Assembly (NCBI GenBank): GCA_027484125.1
Contig: JAIXUI010000075.1
Location: forward strand, 1-56,688
From: Bacteroidota bacterium
GTDB lineage: Bacteria; Bacteroidota; Bacteroidia; UBA7662; JAIXUI01
DNA: 56,688 bases
Reading direction: 5' to 3'
Below, in pieces: positions 23,071 to 32,867 of the stretch. Under the pieces are notes generated by a model. It was not told the origin of the DNA. It saw only the letters and a program-made list of their open reading frames with translations, and did no database searches. Made by a program: the position numbers and the translations under genes. How positions within the stretch are numbered: position 1 is the stretch's first letter; every line of letters begins with the position of its first letter.

Positions 23071-23254
23071 TTAAGAGAATCGAGGAAGCATGGAGATTAG
23101 AAATGAGGTAAAAATGTGTGTAAAAGGCCTACGACTATAAATAAATAATCAATTCTAAGTCAAAACATTAAAAAATATTATATAAATAAACTTTTGCATG
23201 CGTTATCAAATTGTTAAATAAATCTTAACTTGATGTACACTTAAATTTTTGCTG

Positions 23255-26200
23255 ATGAGAAGAAAACTACTCACTTCCCTGATGGGTCTATTAGCAGTTT
23301 TGTACAGCTTGATGGCTTCAGGGCAGTCCCGTATGATTAGCGGGACCGTGACAGATTCCCGTAACGGCGAGCCGCTCGCAGGCGTTACGGTATTCGTGAA
23401 AGGCACCCAAACAGCCTCGAACACTGATGGTAGCGGTAAATATCGAATACAGGTAAGTTCTGATAAACAGACGCTTGTATTTCGAATGATTGGTATGAAA
23501 ACGAAAGAGATTGCTGTGGCTGCCGGGCCTGAAATCAACTTGGCCATGGAAAGTGACGCATTAAACCTTAGCGAAACGGTGGTTACCGCGCTAGGCGTAG
23601 AAAGGGAGAAAAAAGCTTTAGGCTACTCAGCTCAGTCGGTTGGGGGCGAAGAACTTAGACGTTCAGGTGAAGTAAACATCGTTCAAAGCTTAGCAGGTAA
23701 AGCGGCAGGGGTTCAAATTGTAGGATCCAGCGGTACTCCAGGAGCTTCTTCTAAGATTCTCATTCGTGGTAACTCAACCTTTACAGGCGAAAACCAACCG
23801 CTTTTTGTTATCGATGGTGTTCCTATGGATAACTCTACCAGTAGCTCAGTGGCAGGCGATTATCCATTCAACCCAACATTAAACGGGGTAAATAATTCCA
23901 ACCGTGCGTTGGATATCAATCCGGATGATATTGAAGATATGACGGTATTGAAAGGTCCAGCTGCTGCTGCTCTTTATGGGGTACGTGCCGGAAACGGAGC
24001 AGTTGTAATTACTACCAAACGTGGCAAAGGTGGAAAAGGCAAGAACTATGAAGTCCAGATTTCTTCTTCGGTAGAACTGTCGGAGGTTAACAAACTTCCA
24101 GAATTGCAATCTAAGTATGCGCAAGGTAATAGCGGCGGCCGATTTGTTGGAGGTGTTTACCAAAATGGCACTTACTCTACCGCTAATCCCGGAGCAGATG
24201 GCGTTTGGAACACTGACGATGATGTGCTGGGTACCGCCAATAGCTGGGGGCCTGCCATCAGCAATGTGCCTGAATTGGGCGGGAAAAGCTATGATAACAT
24301 GGCTGATTTCTTTCAGACTGGATACACCTATAATAACAACGTGTCTGTTTCTGGTGGAAGTGACCGCGGTTCTTTTAGACTGTCTATAGGTAGAACAGAT
24401 CAAACCGGGGTAGTGCCGAATACGCAATTAAAACGTACCACTATCAGGCTAACGGCGGACCATCGCTTAAGCGATAAAGTTTCGGTATTTGGTACTGTCA
24501 ATTATACCAATAGCAATGGCATAAAAGCGCAAAATGGTTCGAACCTTTCTGGTGTAATGCTAAGTCTTACTCGTGCCCCGGCCAGTTTCAATCTTAAAGG
24601 AGATGGAGATAATGGTTGGCTATTTCCCAATGGGCAGCAACGCCAATATTTCGGCGTTTATGACAATCCTTATTGGACGGCTTTCAGAAATCCACATACC
24701 GATCAAGTAAATCGTATCCTCGGCAACATCGCCTTAAATTACAAACCTGCCAGTTACATGGATATTACCTACCGTTTGGGAACCGACGTTTATACCGATA
24801 ATAGAAAACAAGTGTTTGCTATTGGCTCCTGGGATCCTCCAACCCCAACTGGTGAAATTTGGAATAATACCAAGACGTACTCTGAAATCTATAGCGATTT
24901 GTTGATTACCCTTAAAAAGCAACTAAACCCAAGTTTGATGGGAACCCTAACACTTGGTAACAACCTGAACAATCGCCAGACTAGGGATGAATTTGCAAGA
25001 GGTCGTAATCTAAGCGTTCCTAATTTCTACAATATGACGAATGCCTCTGACCGCTTTGCTAGTGAGTCCGATCAGGTGATTCGCACAGCAGCATTGTTCT
25101 ATGATGCTCATCTTGACATCAAGAATTATTTGTACCTCGCAACTACCGGTCGTTTAGAGTATTCTTCCACCTTTGGTAGCAGTCAAAACAACTTTTTCTT
25201 TCCTTCGGTTAGTGCCTCTTTTGTATTTACTGAGTTTATCAAGGAAAATGATATTTTATCCTTTGGTAAGCTGAGAGCCGCGGTAGCACAATCCGGTATC
25301 AGCCCAAGTCCTTACACTTCCAGAACATATTTTCGTTCGCCATTATTTACAGATGGCTTTACTGACGGAATCAGTTTCCCATTTAATGGGCTCAATGGAT
25401 TTGGTTATACATCAAATGGTGTAATTGGTAACCCTAACTTACGTCCTGAAATTTTGACTGGTTATGACCTTGGTCTTGACTTGCGCTTCCTAAAAGGGCG
25501 TTTAAATTTAGACTTCACCTACTATTATCAGCAAACGGATGACATCATCGTTACTAGACCAGTAGCTGGTTCTACAGGATTTACGAATTATGTTCAGAAT
25601 GCCGGTTCTATGCGCAACCACGGAATTGAAATGGTCTTAACTGGTACTCCAATAAAGTCTAAAAACCTGAGCTGGGACATAACGGTAAACTTTAATGCCA
25701 ACCGTAACAAAGTGTTAGATTTAGGTGAAGGGCTCGAAGAAATTCAAATTGATGCCGCATTTGGAGACATCAACGCTTTTGCAATCAAAGATCAGCCCTA
25801 TGGGGTGTTGTACGGCACTCGTTGGTTGAGAAATCCGGCGAATGGCGCATTATTGATTAATCCAAATACTGGTTTGCCTTACTTGGATCCAATCAATGGT
25901 AACATTGGAAATCCTTATCCAGATTGGTTAATGGGTATCCGGAACACCGTTAATTACAAAAACTTTTCGCTTAGTTTCTTATTTGATATTCGCCAAGGCG
26001 GAGCAATTTGGAACGGCACCTATGCCCGTTTAAATAGAATTGGACGAACAGAAGCATCTGCTGATCGTGAACGCCAGTATGTAATTCCAGGAGAGGTTGC
26101 AACAGTTGATGCTAATGGAAACATCGTAAGCACAGGTCAACAAAACGGGAAGCTAATTAATGCGCTTGATTACTATGCACGTTTTGAAGGTGACAACGGC

Positions 26201-26467
26201 TCTGCTCGCGAGCAAAGCGTAGAAGATGGTTCTTGGGTAAGACTTCGTGACGTTGTATTCACTTACAGCTTGAAATTTAAGAATAATAGTACGCTTCGAG
26301 CTTTGGATTTCTCAATTACAGGACGAAATCTATTGCTGATTACCAATTACAGAGGAGTTGATCCTGAAACCAGCCTTACCGGTGCCGGCTCTAACATCGG
26401 TGGATTTGATTACTTCAACATGCCTGGAACTCGTTCTTACATTTTCAGCGTCAGAGCCACATTTTAA
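23255..26467 (+). CDS. SusC/RagA-family TonB-dependent outer-membrane transporter
   Basis: A 1070-residue outer-membrane importer. Order: signal peptide (about 1-23), a CarboxypepD-regulatory-like Ig domain (about 25-105; ISGTVTDSRNGEPLAGVTVFVKG), a plug domain with the family signature ALYGVRAGNGAVVITTKRGK at about 235-255, and a 22-strand barrel ending in an aromatic residue (SVRATF). It works with the SusD-like lipoprotein encoded 11 bases downstream, taking up oligomers or large ligands powered by TonB. The ATG at 23255 is chosen over the TTG two codons upstream. The upstream 190 bases are AT-rich; AATTTTTG three bases before the ATG is a one-mismatch -7 element. No anti-sigma/ECF pair, hybrid sensor or glycoside hydrolase adjoins, so the ligand is not predictable. 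Confidence 0.95.
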   Translation: MRRKLLTSLMGLLAVLYSLMASGQSRMISGTVTDSRNGEPLAGVTVFVKGTQTASNTDGSGKYRIQVSSDKQTLVFRMIGMKTKEIAVAAGPEINLAMESDALNLSETVVTALGVEREKKALGYSAQSVGGEELRRSGEVNIVQSLAGKAAGVQIVGSSGTPGASSKILIRGNSTFTGENQPLFVIDGVPMDNSTSSSVAGDYPFNPTLNGVNNSNRALDINPDDIEDMTVLKGPAAAALYGVRAGNGAVVITTKRGKGGKGKNYEVQISSSVELSEVNKLPELQSKYAQGNSGGRFVGGVYQNGTYSTANPGADGVWNTDDDVLGTANSWGPAISNVPELGGKSYDNMADFFQTGYTYNNNVSVSGGSDRGSFRLSIGRTDQTGVVPNTQLKRTTIRLTADHRLSDKVSVFGTVNYTNSNGIKAQNGSNLSGVMLSLTRAPASFNLKGDGDNGWLFPNGQQRQYFGVYDNPYWTAFRNPHTDQVNRILGNIALNYKPASYMDITYRLGTDVYTDNRKQVFAIGSWDPPTPTGEIWNNTKTYSEIYSDLLITLKKQLNPSLMGTLTLGNNLNNRQTRDEFARGRNLSVPNFYNMTNASDRFASESDQVIRTAALFYDAHLDIKNYLYLATTGRLEYSSTFGSSQNNFFFPSVSASFVFTEFIKENDILSFGKLRAAVAQSGISPSPYTSRTYFRSPLFTDGFTDGISFPFNGLNGFGYTSNGVIGNPNLRPEILTGYDLGLDLRFLKGRLNLDFTYYYQQTDDIIVTRPVAGSTGFTNYVQNAGSMRNHGIEMVLTGTPIKSKNLSWDITVNFNANRNKVLDLGEGLEEIQIDAAFGDINAFAIKDQPYGVLYGTRWLRNPANGALLINPNTGLPYLDPINGNIGNPYPDWLMGIRNTVNYKNFSLSFLFDIRQGGAIWNGTYARLNRIGRTEASADRERQYVIPGEVATVDANGNIVSTGQQNGKLINALDYYARFEGDNGSAREQSVEDGSWVRLRDVVFTYSLKFKNNSTLRALDFSITGRNLLLITNYRGVDPETSLTGAGSNIGGFDYFNMPGTRSYIFSVRATF

Positions 26468-26478
26468 CGACTAATCAC

Positions 26479-27864
26479 ATGAAAAGAATTCTCCTTTTAG
26501 GCCTTGTATCGGCCCTTTTTCTAAGTTCCTGCGATAAGTACATTGAGGGATTTGATAAATCGCCCAATCTTCCCGGAGAGGTGAGCAATGCTAACCTGCT
26601 TTTGGTTTCAGGCGTTGCCACTCAATCCAATTATACTGGCCACTTGGCACGTATGCAAGCATGTTTTATTCAGCAGTGTTCCGGAATTGCGTTTCAATAT
26701 GCCGATTTGGAAGCCTATGTGGTTACGGAAAACGACATGGATAACCTTTGGAACGGAATCTATGCCGATGGTGCTATCAATGCCCAAACCTTGATTAAAC
26801 AGGCAGGTGCCGGCAACCCTTGGTATGCTGGTATGGCCAAGGTGTTGAAAGCCATGAACTTGGCACTCGCCAGCGATATGTGGGGTAATGTTCCATTGCG
26901 TGAAGCCCTTCGCGGTATTGAAGGTCCAGCCTACTTCAACCCTGCTTATGATAATCAGGAGCAGATTTATAATGATTTACAGGCCTTGTTGAGTGAAGCC
27001 ATTGTTGATCTTAAGAAACCTGCTTCTGCTAACCTGTTAAGGCCTAATGCCAGCGATGATGTGTTTTTTGGTGGCGATGCCGCCAGTTGGGTGAAAGTTG
27101 CCTGGATGTTGAAAGCAAGGCTGGCCATTCATCTAACTAAACGAAATGGCAACAATGCGGCAACTCAGGCAAACGCGTTCCTAGATAGTGCAAATCTTTC
27201 CGGTAACGGAGATAATATGATAGCGCGTTGGGGTTCTCGTGGCAATGAATTGAATCCCTGGTACTCGTTTAACCTCACTCGTGGAGGATATTTAAAGATG
27301 GGTAAACCATTTGTAGATCGAATGCTAAGCACCAACGACCCTCGCTTGCCATTTTTTGCTACTACCGATGCCTCAGGAGGATATTCCGGTACAGAAGCGA
27401 ACAGTGGGGTGGATACCACTTCGGATGTTGGCAACTTTGTAGCTGGTGCTAGTGCTACTAATGCCTTAGTAACTTATGCAGAAATGATGTTCATAAAAGC
27501 AGAGGCTGAATTTCGATTGGGCAATGGTGCAGCTGCGGCTACTGCTTTTAATGCTGCTGTAAAAGCTTCAATTCTTGAAGTAACTGGAAGTAGCAATCCT
27601 ACATTTGAAGCTGCAAATGCAAATGAAACGGCTACAACCATCACTTTGGAGAAAATTTTAACCCAAAAGAATACCGCCTTGTTCTCTCAAATTGAAGCCT
27701 TCAACGACTGGAGGAGAACAGGAATCCCTGCTGTTACACCAGCTGCCGGTGCTGCTTTATCCGCTGTGCCTCGTAGGTTACCAACTCCACTTAATGAAAG
27801 AGTAAATAACCGAAATGCTTCGGTAGTTTCTGATTTGCTAAGTCGAGTTTGGTGGGATCAATGA
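26479..27864 (+). CDS. SusD/RagB-family surface lipoprotein (SusD-like_2 type)
   Basis: A 461-residue lipoprotein with lipobox LFLSSC (Cys at 17) directing it to the outer membrane, where it forms the lid of the SusC-like barrel. The family pattern is seen in the helical TPR-like region: MDNLWNGIYADGAINAQ, WYAGMAKVLKAMNLALASDMWGNVPLREAL and SWVKVAWMLKARLAIHLTKR, then VTYAEMMFIKAEAEFRLGN and the C-terminal FNDWRRTGIPAVTP followed by PRRLPTPLNE. The closely matching block DMWGNVPLREAL is typical of SusD-like_2 members. It is followed by a terminator, so the SusC/SusD pair forms a two-gene operon. Confidence 0.95.
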   Translation: MKRILLLGLVSALFLSSCDKYIEGFDKSPNLPGEVSNANLLLVSGVATQSNYTGHLARMQACFIQQCSGIAFQYADLEAYVVTENDMDNLWNGIYADGAINAQTLIKQAGAGNPWYAGMAKVLKAMNLALASDMWGNVPLREALRGIEGPAYFNPAYDNQEQIYNDLQALLSEAIVDLKKPASANLLRPNASDDVFFGGDAASWVKVAWMLKARLAIHLTKRNGNNAATQANAFLDSANLSGNGDNMIARWGSRGNELNPWYSFNLTRGGYLKMGKPFVDRMLSTNDPRLPFFATTDASGGYSGTEANSGVDTTSDVGNFVAGASATNALVTYAEMMFIKAEAEFRLGNGAAAATAFNAAVKASILEVTGSSNPTFEAANANETATTITLEKILTQKNTALFSQIEAFNDWRRTGIPAVTPAAGAALSAVPRRLPTPLNERVNNRNASVVSDLLSRVWWDQ

Positions 27865-27882: not shown

Positions 27883-27914
27883 ACAAAAGGCTGCCCAAAC
27901 GGGTAGCCTTTTGT
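27883..27914 (+). terminator. Intrinsic terminator after the SusC/SusD pair
   Basis: A 14-bp stem (27883-27896 with 27901-27914, one G-T pair) with an aaac loop, followed by a T-rich stretch that ends at the start codon of the PAS gene only eight bases later. Confidence 0.85.
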
Positions 27915-27921
27915 ATTTTTA

Positions 27922-29607
27922 ATGGTGGAGAATCAAGGTTTAGCTGCTTTTTATGATCAGAATGCGATATCTGCTTTAGCGCAGTCTTCGTTGGTGTCGA
28001 TGATTTTGCTAGATGAGGAAGGGATGATCCGCTTCCTCAACGAGCCTGCAAAATTTGCATTTCCCGACCTTAAATATGGACAATCTCTCTTTTCTTTTGT
28101 GCACGATGCGCATCATGGAAGACTTGATGCGTGTTTGAATAATAGGCTTGACTTTTCACCAAAGCTGGTTCAGCTTCACTTTAAAATGGTGAACCACGCC
28201 ATGCTTTGGGAAGTATTTCGAAGAAATAGTACCAGTGAGGTGGTTTTGTTAACTCAAGAAACTGGATTTGCAGACATACACAGAGAGCAGCTCGTTCGGC
28301 AACAACAAGAAATTTTTCAAGCATTAGAAGATGGTTTCTTTGAAATAGATGACTCTGGATTCATTACTTCTGTTAATCAAACTCTTATAAATTGGCTTCA
28401 AGGAAGTTATGCTGATCAGCCAAAACTCGAAGATTGGTTTAAGAAGGATGATAAAAACCTTGATTTCTACCAAAAACTTCAGGCCATTAAGCAGCCTTTT
28501 CTTTCTGATTCTGGTGTATGCTTTTGTTATCCATCAAGTCGTTGGTGTCGATTTGAATTGGTGTCGAGATTAGGATTTGTGATGGTTCGATTAACTGATA
28601 TTTCTGATGAAATCACCAAAGATGACGAATTGAAACTCGCCCAACGAAGAATGCTTGCGATTTTGGAAAGTACCGGTGATGCCAATTTGTTGATTGATAA
28701 TTCCGGTAAATTACTCTCGTTCAATGGAAAAGCTATTGAAGTAATTCAGAGTTGGCTTGGTATAATTCCTTTTGAGGGCTTGGATTTCCAATCCTGCTTA
28801 TCCAGGCAACAAACTTTGGACTTTGAAGCATTAATTCGAAAAGCACTTGAAGGTGAGTTTGTAAACTTTGAATTAAAAATCAATTCCTTATTGGGGCTAG
28901 AAAATTGGTATTCTGTTAGGATTTTTCCGGCTAAAGAGGAGGGAGGTGAAATTTTTGGTGCCTCTTTAAATCTGTCAGACCTAACCAAACATAAAGAGTT
29001 AGAGCAAATTTTAACTGAAACAGAGCGCAAGCTTATGGCTCTTTTTAGCGCAACAAATGAGTCATTTGTGCTTTTTGATCATTTAGGTAAGGTTAAGTTC
29101 TATAATAAACAACTTTTACAACTTCCCTTGCATGTGAAGTCATCGGGTAATGTTTCCATTGGTAGTACCCTGTTTGATTTGGGATTAAACTTTCCGGGAG
29201 ATTTGTTGGAGGAGTCTCTTAGCCAGACTTTAGAAGGATTAAGTAAGAAGCAAATATTTGAATTAGAAAATCATAGCCAAGAACCAAGTTGGTGGGCAGT
29301 TAATACCTTTCCGGCTTTAAATAATCAAGGTTCCTTGTTAGGCGCTGTGCTATCAATAGAAGAAGTTACAGAAGAGATTTTGAATAAATTGGAAATAATT
29401 GATCGCTACAATCAATTAAGAGAGTTAGCAAAAATTCATTCGCATGAGGTTCGGAAACCTTTAGCCAATGTGTTAGGGCTTATAGACATTTTATCAAATA
29501 CAAGCCAAGAGGAAATAGTGGATCAAGAGAAACTCAAGCATTTACTAAGTGGTCAAATATCAGAGTTGGATGTTCTCATTCAACAGCTAAATCAACGCAA
29601 TTTTTGA
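27922..29607 (+). CDS. Multi-PAS protein ending in a HisKA-like helix without ATPase domain
   Basis: A 561-residue cytoplasmic protein without signal peptide or membrane helices. Four PAS-like domains can be outlined at about 16-115, 128-230, 240-355 and 365-482, for example ILLDEEGMIRFLNEPA, NLLIDNSGKLLSFNGKA and FVLFDHLGKVKFYNKQ. The last 70 residues form a dimerisation/phosphotransfer helix pair with the box HSHEVRKPLANVLGL; H508 matches the phosphoacceptor His of HisKA domains. The protein stops right after the second helix and has no HATPase domain. It could be a phosphorelay or scaffold protein acted on by another kinase. It is coupled to a paralogous gene by a TGATG overlap. The start ATG lies eight bases after the SusC/SusD terminator. 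Confidence 0.85.
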   Translation: MVENQGLAAFYDQNAISALAQSSLVSMILLDEEGMIRFLNEPAKFAFPDLKYGQSLFSFVHDAHHGRLDACLNNRLDFSPKLVQLHFKMVNHAMLWEVFRRNSTSEVVLLTQETGFADIHREQLVRQQQEIFQALEDGFFEIDDSGFITSVNQTLINWLQGSYADQPKLEDWFKKDDKNLDFYQKLQAIKQPFLSDSGVCFCYPSSRWCRFELVSRLGFVMVRLTDISDEITKDDELKLAQRRMLAILESTGDANLLIDNSGKLLSFNGKAIEVIQSWLGIIPFEGLDFQSCLSRQQTLDFEALIRKALEGEFVNFELKINSLLGLENWYSVRIFPAKEEGGEIFGASLNLSDLTKHKELEQILTETERKLMALFSATNESFVLFDHLGKVKFYNKQLLQLPLHVKSSGNVSIGSTLFDLGLNFPGDLLEESLSQTLEGLSKKQIFELENHSQEPSWWAVNTFPALNNQGSLLGAVLSIEEVTEEILNKLEIIDRYNQLRELAKIHSHEVRKPLANVLGLIDILSNTSQEEIVDQEKLKHLLSGQISELDVLIQQLNQRNF

Positions 29608-31298
29608 TGAGAAGGTGGTTTGATTCTAAATTGTTTCCTTCGGTTTCAATATATCCGGATGGAAGATTAAAAATGGTAAATGAGCGATTCAGGGCCATGT
29701 TTCTGCCTAATTCTGATTCTTACCATGGAATTCCATTTTCCGGATTATTAAAAAGTAAGGAGGTTGATTTAATGATGCGCAGTCTCGTTGCTTTAAATCA
29801 AAGTCCGGGAACACAGATTTCGCTAATCTTCAGTATGTCAACCATGTCTTCGAAAATAGAGGTTATTGAATGGGAATTTTTATCTCATGCCCAATCAGAA
29901 GATCAAGTAGATGAAATTACCGCCATAGGCAGAATCAGAGAACCATTGATCCATTCGGCTCCCTATTCCAATTCATTGGTTTACCATCAACGTTATTTGG
30001 ATGCACTAGTTGATTTGTTTTTTATTGTTGATAGAAACTTCAGATTAATTAGTGTAAACAGAAAGTTTGAACGTTATTTTCAATTGAATAGAGTGAATTG
30101 GTTAGGAGTAAATTTGAATGAAAATCCTATCCCGGGAATGCACCATCAGCTTTTGAAATCAATTGACTTAGCTATTTTGTTGAATCAGCCTAATGAGTTG
30201 TTAATTTCTGATTTTGATGGAATGGCCATTGTTAAATATAAAGTGGCGATCGTAAACGATGGTGTTTTGGTGCTAGGTCGGGATGTAACACCCTGTTATG
30301 CTAATTCTGAGAAATTAAAACGTTCGAAACAGAAACTTGATGCCATTCTTAACTCTACCACCGACAGTAACTTGCTAATTTCCCCCGAAGGCTATGTGCT
30401 TAGTTTTAATAAAGTCTCAGAAATTGAAATGCGCACGGTCTTTAAGAAAGAGCTTAAAATTGGTAGCCATATAGAGTCATACCTTATTCCCAAGTTGATT
30501 GAAGATTTTCGAAAAACGTTTGAAAAGGTGCTTGAAGGTGAAATAGTGGTAAAGGAAGTACAGTTAAACCTTGGCAGCTATTCTGCTTGGTATGAAATCA
30601 AATATCAACCGGTATATGCAGAAAATGGAGAGTTAATTGGAGTCTCTTTCAACTCACGATATATAGATTCTTACAAACAACTCTTGGAACAGTTGAAAAA
30701 TCGGACAGAGATTTTAAACGCAGTTTTTAATAGCACACAATCTGCCTTGATCATTTTGAATTATCAAGGCGAAATCACTTATTTGAATCAGGTGGCCGAG
30801 TGGCTTTTGGTGTCACAATCAGGGTATCCTGTCAAAGAAGGAGATGCCTTGTTCGGCCTACTTCCTGCTCAGTATGGTCATGGTTGTAAACAAAAGTGGG
30901 AGCTTTCCTTGCGAGGGAACCATGCCTCATTAGAGATGGAGCTAGAGAGCCATCTTCATGGGACACAGTATTATCAAGTGCAATTTCACCCTGTTAAAGA
31001 TCAAGAAGGCAAGCAATTCGGCGTTTCAATGGTATTGATTAACCGCACTCATCAGCATCAACAACTCGAACGATTGGCCGCGCAAAACAGAACATTAGCC
31101 AAAATTACAGAGGTTTGTAGTGAAAGTTGGCCTATTCCAATCCGTGTAATTCGTGAGTTAGAAGAGCAGATTAGGCTAACGCCAGACTTAGCTCCTCGGC
31201 TTCTGCCTGCACTACTGAAACAAGCAAGAAAACTAGATCAAATGATTTATTCTGTAAATAAGATGATAGCTGAAACTTCTTTTCAGGACTTTAATTAA
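29607..31298 (+). CDS. Multi-PAS protein with degenerate HisKA-like C-terminus
   Basis: A 563-residue paralogue of the preceding protein with the same plan: four PAS-like domains (about 1-112, 125-230, 240-352, 365-482) and a C-terminal helix pair. The third PAS domains are the closest (AILNSTTDSNLLISPEGYV beside AILESTGDANLLIDNSGKL). In the C-terminal helix the sequence after LAKI is TEVCSESWPIPIRVI, so the phosphoacceptor His is missing, and there is no ATPase domain. It is therefore unlikely to be phosphorylated like a kinase and may sense or modulate as a partner of the first protein. The ATG at 29607 overlaps the upstream TGA (TGATG). No terminator is obvious before the next gene. Confidence 0.83.
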   Translation: MRRWFDSKLFPSVSIYPDGRLKMVNERFRAMFLPNSDSYHGIPFSGLLKSKEVDLMMRSLVALNQSPGTQISLIFSMSTMSSKIEVIEWEFLSHAQSEDQVDEITAIGRIREPLIHSAPYSNSLVYHQRYLDALVDLFFIVDRNFRLISVNRKFERYFQLNRVNWLGVNLNENPIPGMHHQLLKSIDLAILLNQPNELLISDFDGMAIVKYKVAIVNDGVLVLGRDVTPCYANSEKLKRSKQKLDAILNSTTDSNLLISPEGYVLSFNKVSEIEMRTVFKKELKIGSHIESYLIPKLIEDFRKTFEKVLEGEIVVKEVQLNLGSYSAWYEIKYQPVYAENGELIGVSFNSRYIDSYKQLLEQLKNRTEILNAVFNSTQSALIILNYQGEITYLNQVAEWLLVSQSGYPVKEGDALFGLLPAQYGHGCKQKWELSLRGNHASLEMELESHLHGTQYYQVQFHPVKDQEGKQFGVSMVLINRTHQHQQLERLAAQNRTLAKITEVCSESWPIPIRVIRELEEQIRLTPDLAPRLLPALLKQARKLDQMIYSVNKMIAETSFQDFN

Positions 31299-31353
31299 GT
31301 TATCCACTCGCTCATTGGGGAAAGTTGACGCGCTAGCGTTGAAGAATAGCGGT

Positions 31354-31361
31354 TATCTTTG
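31354..31361 (+). promoter_or_regulatory. -7 promoter element of the hydrolase-parA-parB operon
   Basis: TATCTTTG, a perfect TAnnTTTG, 19 bases before the ATG at 31381. It lies inside a frame that is open further upstream and therefore supports the downstream start. Confidence 0.5.
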
Positions 31362-31380
31362 GCCACCAATTTCATCAATC

Positions 31381-32067
31381 ATGAAGGTTACTTATTACGG
31401 ACACGCTTGTTTCGCGGTTGAATCAGGCCAGGCAAAACTCTTGTTTGACCCCTTTATCCGCCACAACCCACTGGCAGGACATGTTTCTGTGGACGAAATT
31501 CAGGCTTCGCACATTCTTGTATCTCATGCACATGGTGACCATCTTGCTGAGGTAGAAGAAATTGCTAACCGCTGTGGTGCTCAGTTGATATCAAACTGGG
31601 AAATAGTTCAATGGTTTGGCCAAAAAGGCATCACAAACGCGCATCCGTTGAATTTTGGTGGGGGGATGGCCGCTACTTTTGGCCGAGTTGATATGACTTA
31701 TGCCCAACATTCCAGCAGCTTTCCAGATGGAACTTATGGTGGAAATCCAGCAGGTTTCATGGTTCATCTCCAGGAGGAAAACCGCCGCTTTTATTATTCC
31801 GGTGATACCGCTCTCTTCTCCGATATGAAACTCCTCGGTGAACTTTACAAGCCTGAGGTTGCTTTTCTCCCAATTGGGGATAACTTTACTATGGGTTACG
31901 AACATGCTGCAATAGCAGCAGAAATGGTTGGTGTGAAGGAAGTAGTAGGTCTTCATTTCGATACTTTCCCCTACATCGTCATCGATCATGCTAAAGCAAT
32001 AGAAGCTTTTAGTAACCGTGGTATCCGCCTACACTTACTTGAACTAGGTCAAAGTATAACCCTCTGA
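31381..32067 (+). CDS. Metal-dependent hydrolase, UPF0173 / metallo-beta-lactamase fold
   Basis: A 228-residue cytoplasmic protein. The start MKVTYYGHACF is the typical beginning of UPF0173 (YtkL-like) proteins, and the metal ligands are visible in LVSHAHGDHL (H-x-H-x-D-H), AQHSSSFPDG, YYSGDTALFSDM and GDNFTMGYEHA. The physiological substrate is unknown. The frame is open for 22 more codons upstream, but that part includes a perfect -7 promoter element, so the ATG is preferred. Its TGA overlaps the parA ATG (TGATG), placing it at the head of the parA-parB-DUF5683 operon. Confidence 0.9.
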   Translation: MKVTYYGHACFAVESGQAKLLFDPFIRHNPLAGHVSVDEIQASHILVSHAHGDHLAEVEEIANRCGAQLISNWEIVQWFGQKGITNAHPLNFGGGMAATFGRVDMTYAQHSSSFPDGTYGGNPAGFMVHLQEENRRFYYSGDTALFSDMKLLGELYKPEVAFLPIGDNFTMGYEHAAIAAEMVGVKEVVGLHFDTFPYIVIDHAKAIEAFSNRGIRLHLLELGQSITL

Positions 32068-32867
32068 TGGGAAAAGTAATCGCTGTTGCGAACCAAAAAG
32101 GGGGAGTAGGGAAAACTACTACCGCCATTAACTTGGCTGCCAGCTTGGCAGTACTTGAGTATAAAACCTTGCTCGTTGACGCAGATCCTCAAGCCAATGC
32201 CACCTCGGGTATCGGAGTGGATGTTCGAGCTGTGAAAACGGGCTTGTATGAGTGTATGGTGAATGACGTGCCGGCTTCAAGGAATATCCTGACTACGGAT
32301 ACGCCCATGCTGGATTTGCTTCCTTCACATATCGACTTAGTTGGTGCTGAAATTGAAATGATTGAGCGACCAAATCGTGAACGTATTCTAGATCAAGTCT
32401 TACATGATGTCCGTGACCACTATGATTTCATCATCATAGATTGTTCACCCTCATTGGGTTTAATTACAATCAACGCACTAACCGCTTCTGATTCTGTTAT
32501 CATCCCAGTTCAATGCGAATATTTCGCTTTGGAGGGACTTGGCAAATTGCTCAATACCATTCACATTGTTCAACAGCGTTTCAATCCCAACCTTCGCAAC
32601 GAAGGAATTTTACTGACCATGTACGACGCTCGGCTTCGCCTTTCCAACCAAGTGGTGGAAGAGGTAAAATCGAACCTCGGAGACATGGTCTTCGACACCA
32701 TCATTTACCGAAATACCCGATTAAGTGAGGCTCCAAGCTTTGGTAAGTCTGTTATCATGCATGATGCAGCCAGCAAAGGTGCGGTAAACTACCTCAACCT
32801 TGCGAGGGAAATTCTTCAGAAAAATAACCTGACTCAAATTTCAGAGTCAGACAGAACGTTGCAATAA
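32067..32867 (+). CDS. parA: Chromosome-partitioning ATPase ParA (Soj)
   Basis: A 266-residue deviant-Walker ATPase that forms a nucleoid-bound gradient driving separation of origin regions with ParB. Seen: the P-loop NQKGGVGKTTTAIN with the signature Lys at the start of the loop, the Walker A' block LLVDADPQANATSG, and the Walker B region FIIIDCSPSLGLI; PVQCEYFALEGLG is a typical ParA/Soj stretch. The lack of an N-terminal helix-turn-helix marks it as chromosomal (Soj) type. Overlaps the upstream hydrolase gene by one base and is followed four bases later by parB. Confidence 0.97.
   Translation: MGKVIAVANQKGGVGKTTTAINLAASLAVLEYKTLLVDADPQANATSGIGVDVRAVKTGLYECMVNDVPASRNILTTDTPMLDLLPSHIDLVGAEIEMIERPNRERILDQVLHDVRDHYDFIIIDCSPSLGLITINALTASDSVIIPVQCEYFALEGLGKLLNTIHIVQQRFNPNLRNEGILLTMYDARLRLSNQVVEEVKSNLGDMVFDTIIYRNTRLSEAPSFGKSVIMHDAASKGAVNYLNLAREILQKNNLTQISESDRTLQ

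Follow-up and report, generated by a model that had tools for sequence, protein, structure and literature searches.

Two coupled PAS proteins without a kinase domain in a Bacteroidota genome: a candidate histidine phosphotransferase and its probable histidine-less partner

What can a sensor protein do when it carries a candidate phosphoacceptor histidine but no kinase domain, and what is the use of a coupled paralogue that has lost the histidine as well? The question is raised by two genes, here called P1 and P2, on the plus strand of a contig from a Bacteroidota bacterium (GenBank assembly GCA_027484125.1, contig JAIXUI010000075.1). The whole stretch analysed, 56,688 nucleotides long, is called the window, and the two genes occupy positions 27922-31298 of it. 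Both proteins combine PAS domains with a C-terminal helical hairpin like the dimerization and histidine phosphotransfer domain (DHp) of HisKA kinases, and both lack the catalytic ATPase domain (CA, HATPase). The reading that we prefer, with a probability of about one half, sees P1 as an orphan within a widespread class of kinase-less PAS-DHp proteins of Bacteroidota and has it act as a dimeric, sensor-gated histidine phosphotransferase, with P2 as its regulatory partner.

A first reading made from the sequence alone had described P1 and P2 as coupled paralogues of about 560 residues, each with four PAS domains and C-terminal HisKA-like helices. The open reading frames, a Pfam search, AlphaFold2 models and the TGATG overlap of the genes bear this description out. 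Pfam detects several PAS families in each protein, and the models (mean pLDDT 70 for P1 and 61 for P2) contain four PAS folds each, the first being of low confidence in both proteins. The C-terminal helices are predicted at residues 483-509/511-526 and 532-560 of P1 and at residues 481-507/509-524 and 526-556 of P2 (pLDDT ~68-91). P1 matches the HisKA family PF00512 with 21.2 bits (E 2.9e-4), which is under the curated cut-off of 26.9, and it matches a profile of CA-less DHp tails, of which it is itself a part, with 86.8 bits. The tails of 12 out of 12 CA-less relatives match PF00512, which supports a relation of the helices to HisKA. P2 gave no PF00512 match in the Pfam search, and its second hairpin helix matches the CA-less DHp profile weakly (12.9 bits). 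His508 of P1 lies in the first hairpin helix, within the motif SHEVRKPL. The loss of the histidine from P2, also claimed from the sequence alone, is evident in the alignment: the corresponding stretch reads SESWPIPI with Glu506 at the histidine position, and P2 cannot accept a phosphoryl group at this site. The two proteins share 27% identity over 391 residues (E 1e-23) and 25% over the full alignment; therefore, the tandem duplication is old. A sequence search of the PDB with P1 gave no match, and the structure searches (Foldseek with P2, VIA-align with P1) were dominated by the PAS domains, the P1 alignment barely probing other parts. None of the matches listed is confined to the DHp hairpin, a negative that carries no weight.

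A histidine kinase is recognised by a CA domain on the same chain, and the Pfam search found no HATPase_c in P1 or P2; the canonical Hpt domain (PF01627) is also absent among their Pfam matches. P1 ends at residue 561, directly after the hairpin and one residue past the DHp match. Distant full kinases align with the PAS-DHp part of P1 at 23-24% identity and then continue into CA, so we considered a truncated or frameshifted kinase, the objection that the sequence-only reading had itself foreseen. This candidate was ruled out: no HATPase or receiver (REC) remnant is present in the six frames of 29401-32100, and the CA-less relatives group into separate lineages in the tree of DHp tails given below. 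We also find it highly improbable that the locus is a decaying remnant, in which the loss of CA and a later duplication have left a former kinase without function. It is true that P1 has no orthologue in its order or in its family, which is represented by this genome alone, that the H-box of P2 is degraded, and that the G+C content of the window is at its lowest over the P1/P2 region (37%). However, the frames are open at full length (561 and 563 codons), the translational coupling is precise, no trace of a CA domain is left, the H-box of P1 is intact, and the CA-less relatives are an old lineage.

To define the relatives, a profile built from ten CA-less tails was run over 149 genomes of the same taxonomic class, and regions were fetched at 20 stretches of the own genome and, in other genomes, around 60 of the best matches listed. 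Among the DHp genes found in these regions, 55 end at most 40 residues past the DHp without CA, 6 run into REC without CA, and 20 run into CA. The 55 genes come from 30 genomes and form our sample; drawn from the matches listed, it is biased to high scores. Two fetched regions (L182, L232) were excluded, as a longer overlapping reading frame was preferred, and the protein C96 of the own genome is thus absent from the sample, though class-like. We define the protein class by a DHp with S/A-H-x-[VLI]-R-x-P, a protein end within ~20 residues and no CA. P1 fits this definition (SHEVRKPLA), and P2 fails it because of Glu at the histidine position. In the sample, His is present in 54 of 55 proteins (one has Asp), Arg at the third position after it (H+3) in all 55, and Pro at H+5 in 54.

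In HisKA kinases, an acidic residue at H+1 is needed only for the kinase activity and Thr or Asn at H+4 only for the phosphatase activity (PMC3510030), and the acidic neighbour of the histidine acts as a general base (PMC7005713). Most of the sampled CA-less proteins lack the residue for the first activity, and all of them lack that for the second. At H+1 they have E in 13 cases, V in 11, Q in 6, K and I in 5 each, L in 4, N and M in 3 each, R in 2, and T, S and P in one each; the 20 CA-bearing relatives have N in 12, E in 6 and D in 2. Thus, E, D or N occupies H+1 in 16/55 CA-less and 20/20 CA-bearing proteins (p 9e-9). The phosphatase residue, Thr or Asn at H+4, is found in none of the 55, with the caveat that the CA-bearing relatives, too, often have Ala at this position, and Asn at H+1. 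A histidine that is kept while H+1 and H+4 are released is what would be expected of a phosphotransfer-only protein. When the CA/no-CA label is followed along a tree of the DHp tails, it switches 6 times, compared to a mean of 30.3 and a minimum of 24 for shuffled labels. The tree has 72 columns and many weak nodes, and identical rows and those members of the named set (see below) with locus numbers >285 were left out. The small number of switches indicates that the CA-less proteins belong to lineages of long standing and did not arise by truncations here and there.

The sample is also associated with receivers. REC genes make up 16 of 94 immediate neighbours of the sampled genes and 2 of 188 genes located at least four genes away (p 7e-7). 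A REC domain in cis or an adjacent REC or CA gene was found for 14 of the 55 proteins and for neither P1 nor P2, so the receiver link is a property of only part of the class.

Using the pattern W[TIM]QSHxVRA, we then scanned named genomes. At least 594 stretches were found, of which 580 were confirmed, and the best 80 of these were used; they were ranked by similarity to a query with Val at H+1, which favours Val at this position. All organisms named in these best 80 of 580 matches belong to Bacteroidota, for example Arenibacter, Flavobacterium, Algoriphagus, Salegentibacter, Marivirga and Dyadobacter. In this set, every protein ends 1-19 residues past the DHp (80/80), and H+1 is V in 53, I in 21, M in 3, K in 2 and L in 1, never E, D or N. 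The histidine is retained in 82/82 members of the named set, and 44/80 of the best matches carry REC in cis. Neighbours were counted for 77 loci, without three clipped ones (L260, L315, L329): a REC gene adjoins on the same strand in 43, a CA protein is encoded by one of the two preceding genes or by the next gene in 33, and some REC or CA link exists in 55. The phosphoacceptor Asp and the Lys of the fused receivers are retained in 58/58 cases each. One operon recurs in Algoriphagus, Belliella, Marivirga, Flavobacterium and relatives (L297, L312, L319, L322, L323, L266, L280, L296, L327, at locus position ~4001): a PAS kinase, a REC-only protein (~145 residues), a REC-PAS-DHp protein without CA (~340 residues) and a second REC-only protein (~130 residues). 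This operon is a candidate for an undescribed phosphorelay. Other arrangements were observed in the same set. At L292 (2669-4024), a MEDS-PAS-DHp protein without CA is followed by a REC-only gene; seven Arenibacter loci (L253, L254, L257, L259, L264, L270, L276) encode kinase-less proteins of ~1395-1401 residues with eight PAS domains and a DHp, and others with nine PAS domains are up to ~1410 residues long.

The residue at H+1 also bears on a split kinase, in which P1 would form a mixed dimer with another kinase, be phosphorylated on His508 by the CA domain of that kinase, in the manner of CheA3 and CheA4, and then act on a response regulator. HisKA proteins without HATPase (1556 of 42417 in SMART) have been proposed to work in this way (PMC3591291). 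P1 has retained at H+1 the Glu that the kinase reaction requires (PMC3510030), and its genome contains 28 HisKA matches with CA in the same frame that might serve as partners. Nevertheless, H+1 is other than E, D or N in 39/55 sampled proteins and in 80/80 of the best named matches, and no lone CA protein was found near P1/P2, although a distant partner is possible. We consider a split kinase unlikely.

Several further proteins in the genome of P1 stop just past a HisKA-like hairpin. Seven of its 35 PF00512 matches have no HATPase in the same frame (C30, C96, C130, C38, C73, C135 and C148, which is P1). In C38, C73 and C135, a receiver follows the DHp in place of CA. The proteins at C80 and C71:32033 were found by the CA-less DHp profile and not by PF00512. 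With the tails of P2 and of the second gene at C80 added, which PF00512 does not find either, the count of proteins with a CA-less DHp or DHp-like hairpin in this genome comes to 11. The histidine is present in 7 of them; the 4 without it are P2, the second gene at C80, C130 (Asp at the histidine position) and C38 (Thr). The PAS-DHp-REC fusions without CA were recovered among the fetched loci as L235, L236 and L237 (C135, C73 and C38, respectively), along with L205, L215 and L216; in L237, the Asp of the receiver is retained next to the Thr-substituted DHp. The genome has 34 REC matches, 33 of them above the cut-off, compared to one marginal Hpt match located elsewhere than P1/P2, a gap that further phosphotransfer proteins could fill.

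It turned out that the pairing of a histidine-bearing with a histidine-less protein occurs a second time in this genome, at C80 (L230:4868-6953). The upstream gene has the histidine (SHILRHPV), and the second gene, 13 bp downstream and 35% identical over 203 residues, lacks it in the aligned stretch. Each of the four proteins has its own partner as the best match among the proteins compared; thus, separate duplications are the most likely origin of the two pairs. Only 2 of 143 CA-less DHp genes (61 + 82), both in this genome, are followed by a PAS gene with a histidine-less helical tail, so members of the class do not always come as adjacent pairs, a point that the sequence-only reading had wished to see checked. 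The module had been called unusual; this is not supported for P1, since CA-less DHp proteins are common in Bacteroidota. The other tandem arrangements (L202, L282) have the histidine in every member. L282 contains, from position 1781 onward, three consecutive kinase-less PAS-DHp genes on one strand (819, 363 and 712 residues), and in L222 (C94 of another genome) a PAS gene, whose C-terminus resembles a SpoIIE phosphatase by eye, lies 141 bp past a kinase-less DHp gene.

Histidine-less members raise the question of whether the hairpin is a phosphoacceptor at all. NifL and RetS regulate their targets by contact. By analogy, the helices could be a dimerization and binding surface through which P1/P2 regulate a kinase or a regulator, with the histidine of P1 staying unphosphorylated. 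P2, the second C80 gene, C130 and C38 lack the histidine yet share the architecture, and the model of P1 aligns to NifL of the NifL-NifA complex (9qq6_A) with a Z of 12.8, but with a poor rmsd of 11.3 over 308. In contrast, the histidine is kept in 54/55 sampled and 82/82 named proteins while neighbouring positions drift, and the fused receivers keep their phosphoacceptor Asp. An adaptor of this type is rather improbable in our estimation.

Phosphotransfer is the function to which we give preference. The DHp of the class would dimerise as a four-helix bundle, and its conserved histidine would take a phosphoryl group from a phosphorylated receiver and pass it to another one, so that the flow may run from a histidine kinase to a receiver, to the DHp histidine and to a second receiver, as in a shuttle of the Spo0B/ChpT type. 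The role proposed for the PAS domains is to control when the histidine is accessible. P1 has a candidate histidine and no kinase domain, and it could thus be phosphorylated only in trans, as the sequence-only reading had proposed. It may perform the same chemistry as the REC-linked members with distant partners, since no counted member in its genome has a same-strand REC or kinase neighbour. P2 is most likely its histidine-less regulatory partner. Made in step with P1 through translational coupling, P2 may pair with P1 or compete with the formation of P1:P1 dimers, adding its own PAS input. A mixed dimer is the simplest idea in view of the hairpin of P2, the coupling and the kinship of the two proteins. 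A bolder view is that the class is an unrecognised Bacteroidota class of PAS-gated, DHp-hairpin-only phosphotransferases in which a His+/His- pair evolved twice in this genome, giving a heterodimer with one phosphoacceptor per bundle, whose histidine-less half (with Glu in P2) is a dedicated regulator coupling a second PAS array to the phosphate flow. We regard this view as tentative and rather unlikely. The His+/His- pair is the least explained feature of the P1/P2 locus.

Several observations weigh against phosphotransfer by P1. Within its own genome, 4 of the 11 proteins with a CA-less DHp have no histidine, so some of them do without phosphoacceptance. Histidine-less members are under-sampled, because the tails used for the profile all had the histidine. 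An acidic residue (E or D) at H+1 alone does not separate CA-less from CA-bearing proteins (13/55 and 8/20, p 0.24), because many CA-bearing relatives carry Asn, and P1 has Glu there, which a phosphotransfer-only protein would not need. As many as 41 of the 55 sampled proteins have neither REC in cis nor a REC or CA neighbour, and none of the five counted class members in the own genome, P1 included, has an immediate same-strand REC or kinase gene.

A degenerate-peptide scan of 84,980 species genomes matched 68 stretches, none of them belonging to a relative, and revealed no orthologue of P1. P1 matches occur in 8 of 21 genomes of the order, all of them partial and distant outside the own genome. 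In the search of the taxonomic class with the profile of CA-less tails, 103/149 genomes gave matches at E <= 1e-5, CA-bearing kinases included; in a strict search of the phylum, 26/296 genomes did so at E <= 1e-15, among them genomes of another class, with matches counted regardless of CA.

Among known systems, Spo0B has a degenerate second domain after its hairpin and no PAS domain. In ChpT of Caulobacter, the hairpin is likewise followed by a degenerate Bergerat-fold domain, and PAS is absent, whereas P1 has four PAS domains and ends at the hairpin. Spo0B of Bacillus and ChpT have a dimerising hairpin of the DHp type that forms a four-helix bundle, a shuttle histidine and no autokinase activity, and both are described as dimeric phosphotransferases (PMC3433190); the class would share these traits. 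With split kinases such as CheA3/CheA4 and the HisKA proteins without HATPase, P1 shares a phosphoacceptor on a chain without an ATPase domain (PMC3591291); in contrast to them, the residue of the kinase reaction is gone from most Bacteroidota members, many of which have receivers as neighbours and not lone CA proteins. A 2005 census described a family of Archaeoglobus fulgidus proteins with kinase architecture but no HATPase (PMC1183210); these are archaeal and are likened to P1 by description only. Similar in layout are four Flavobacterium/Dyadobacter proteins (L272, L273, L274, L304) of 568-581 residues with four PAS domains, a C-terminal DHp and no CA. In contrast to P1, they have the H-box SHIVRAPLA and a gene for a receiver of 128-141 residues within ~10 bp downstream, and none of the four is among the listed BLAST matches of P1.

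CA-less HisKA proteins in general are already known. For the Bacteroidota class and its operon, we found no description in the open-licence literature of PubMed Central, the scope of our search, which leaves out subscription papers. Members of the class are easily mistaken for truncated kinases, and if they are true phosphotransferases, the phosphorelay wiring of Bacteroidota is undercounted. The class separates, in nature, the phosphoacceptor from the kinase and phosphatase functions within one DHp fold. The operon of a kinase, two REC-only proteins and a REC-PAS-DHp protein offers a testable system and occurs in genera that can be cultured, among them Algoriphagus and Flavobacterium.

The features of the locus are collected in Table 1.

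Table 1. Features of the P1/P2 locus in window coordinates
Feature	Position	Strand	Description
Intrinsic terminator-like hairpin	27883..27914	+	susD-P1 intergenic; 14-bp stem with T-rich tail
P1	27922..29607	+	ATG start, 561 aa; four PAS domains, C-terminal DHp with His, no CA domain
P1 PAS1	27997..28254	+	residues ~26-111; AlphaFold2, low confidence
P1 PAS2	28333..28599	+	residues ~138-226; Pfam and AlphaFold2
P1 PAS3	28681..28980	+	residues ~254-353; Pfam, AlphaFold2 and structural alignment
P1 PAS4	29062..29364	+	residues ~381-481; Pfam and AlphaFold2
P1 DHp helical hairpin	29368..29601	+	residues 483-560; Pfam, CA-less DHp profile and AlphaFold2
P1 H508 codon	29443..29445	+	candidate phosphoacceptor, motif SHEVRKPL
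P1 stop/P2 start overlap TGATG	29605..29609	+	one base common to TGA and ATG; translational coupling
P2	29607..31298	+	563 aa from favoured start ATG 29607; four PAS domains, His-less DHp-like hairpin, no CA
P2 C-terminal helical hairpin	31047..31274	+	residues 481-556; AlphaFold2
P2 Glu506 codon	31122..31124	+	aligned with P1 H508

Inspection of the neighbouring genes revealed no REC or kinase gene adjoining P1/P2, as had been stated before; the nearest kinase/regulator pair of the window is encoded at ~16.0-17.3 kb on the minus strand, ~11 kb away. Downstream of P2 lies a gene for a hydrolase of the metallo-beta-lactamase fold (Pfam), which is matched in 2 of the 21 genomes of the order, the own genome included, and the genes beyond it presumably encode ParA and ParB. 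The gene upstream of P1 (26479-27864) matches the SusD-like families of Pfam, and the one before it (23249-26467) reads as SusC, as in the earlier reading. That reading had proposed that P1/P2 control or use this SusC/SusD pair. The pair is indeed located upstream, but a functional tie is not supported: the hairpin between susD and P1 (centroid -24.4 kcal/mol, z -6.3, with 0 of 200 shuffles equally good) is a strong candidate for an intrinsic terminator. Read-through is possible given that the ATG of P1 lies 8 nt past the hairpin (window 27883-27922), and the stem could also mask the initiation of P1 translation on read-through transcripts. One TANNTTTG-like element is present within the 3' part of susD, at 27600.

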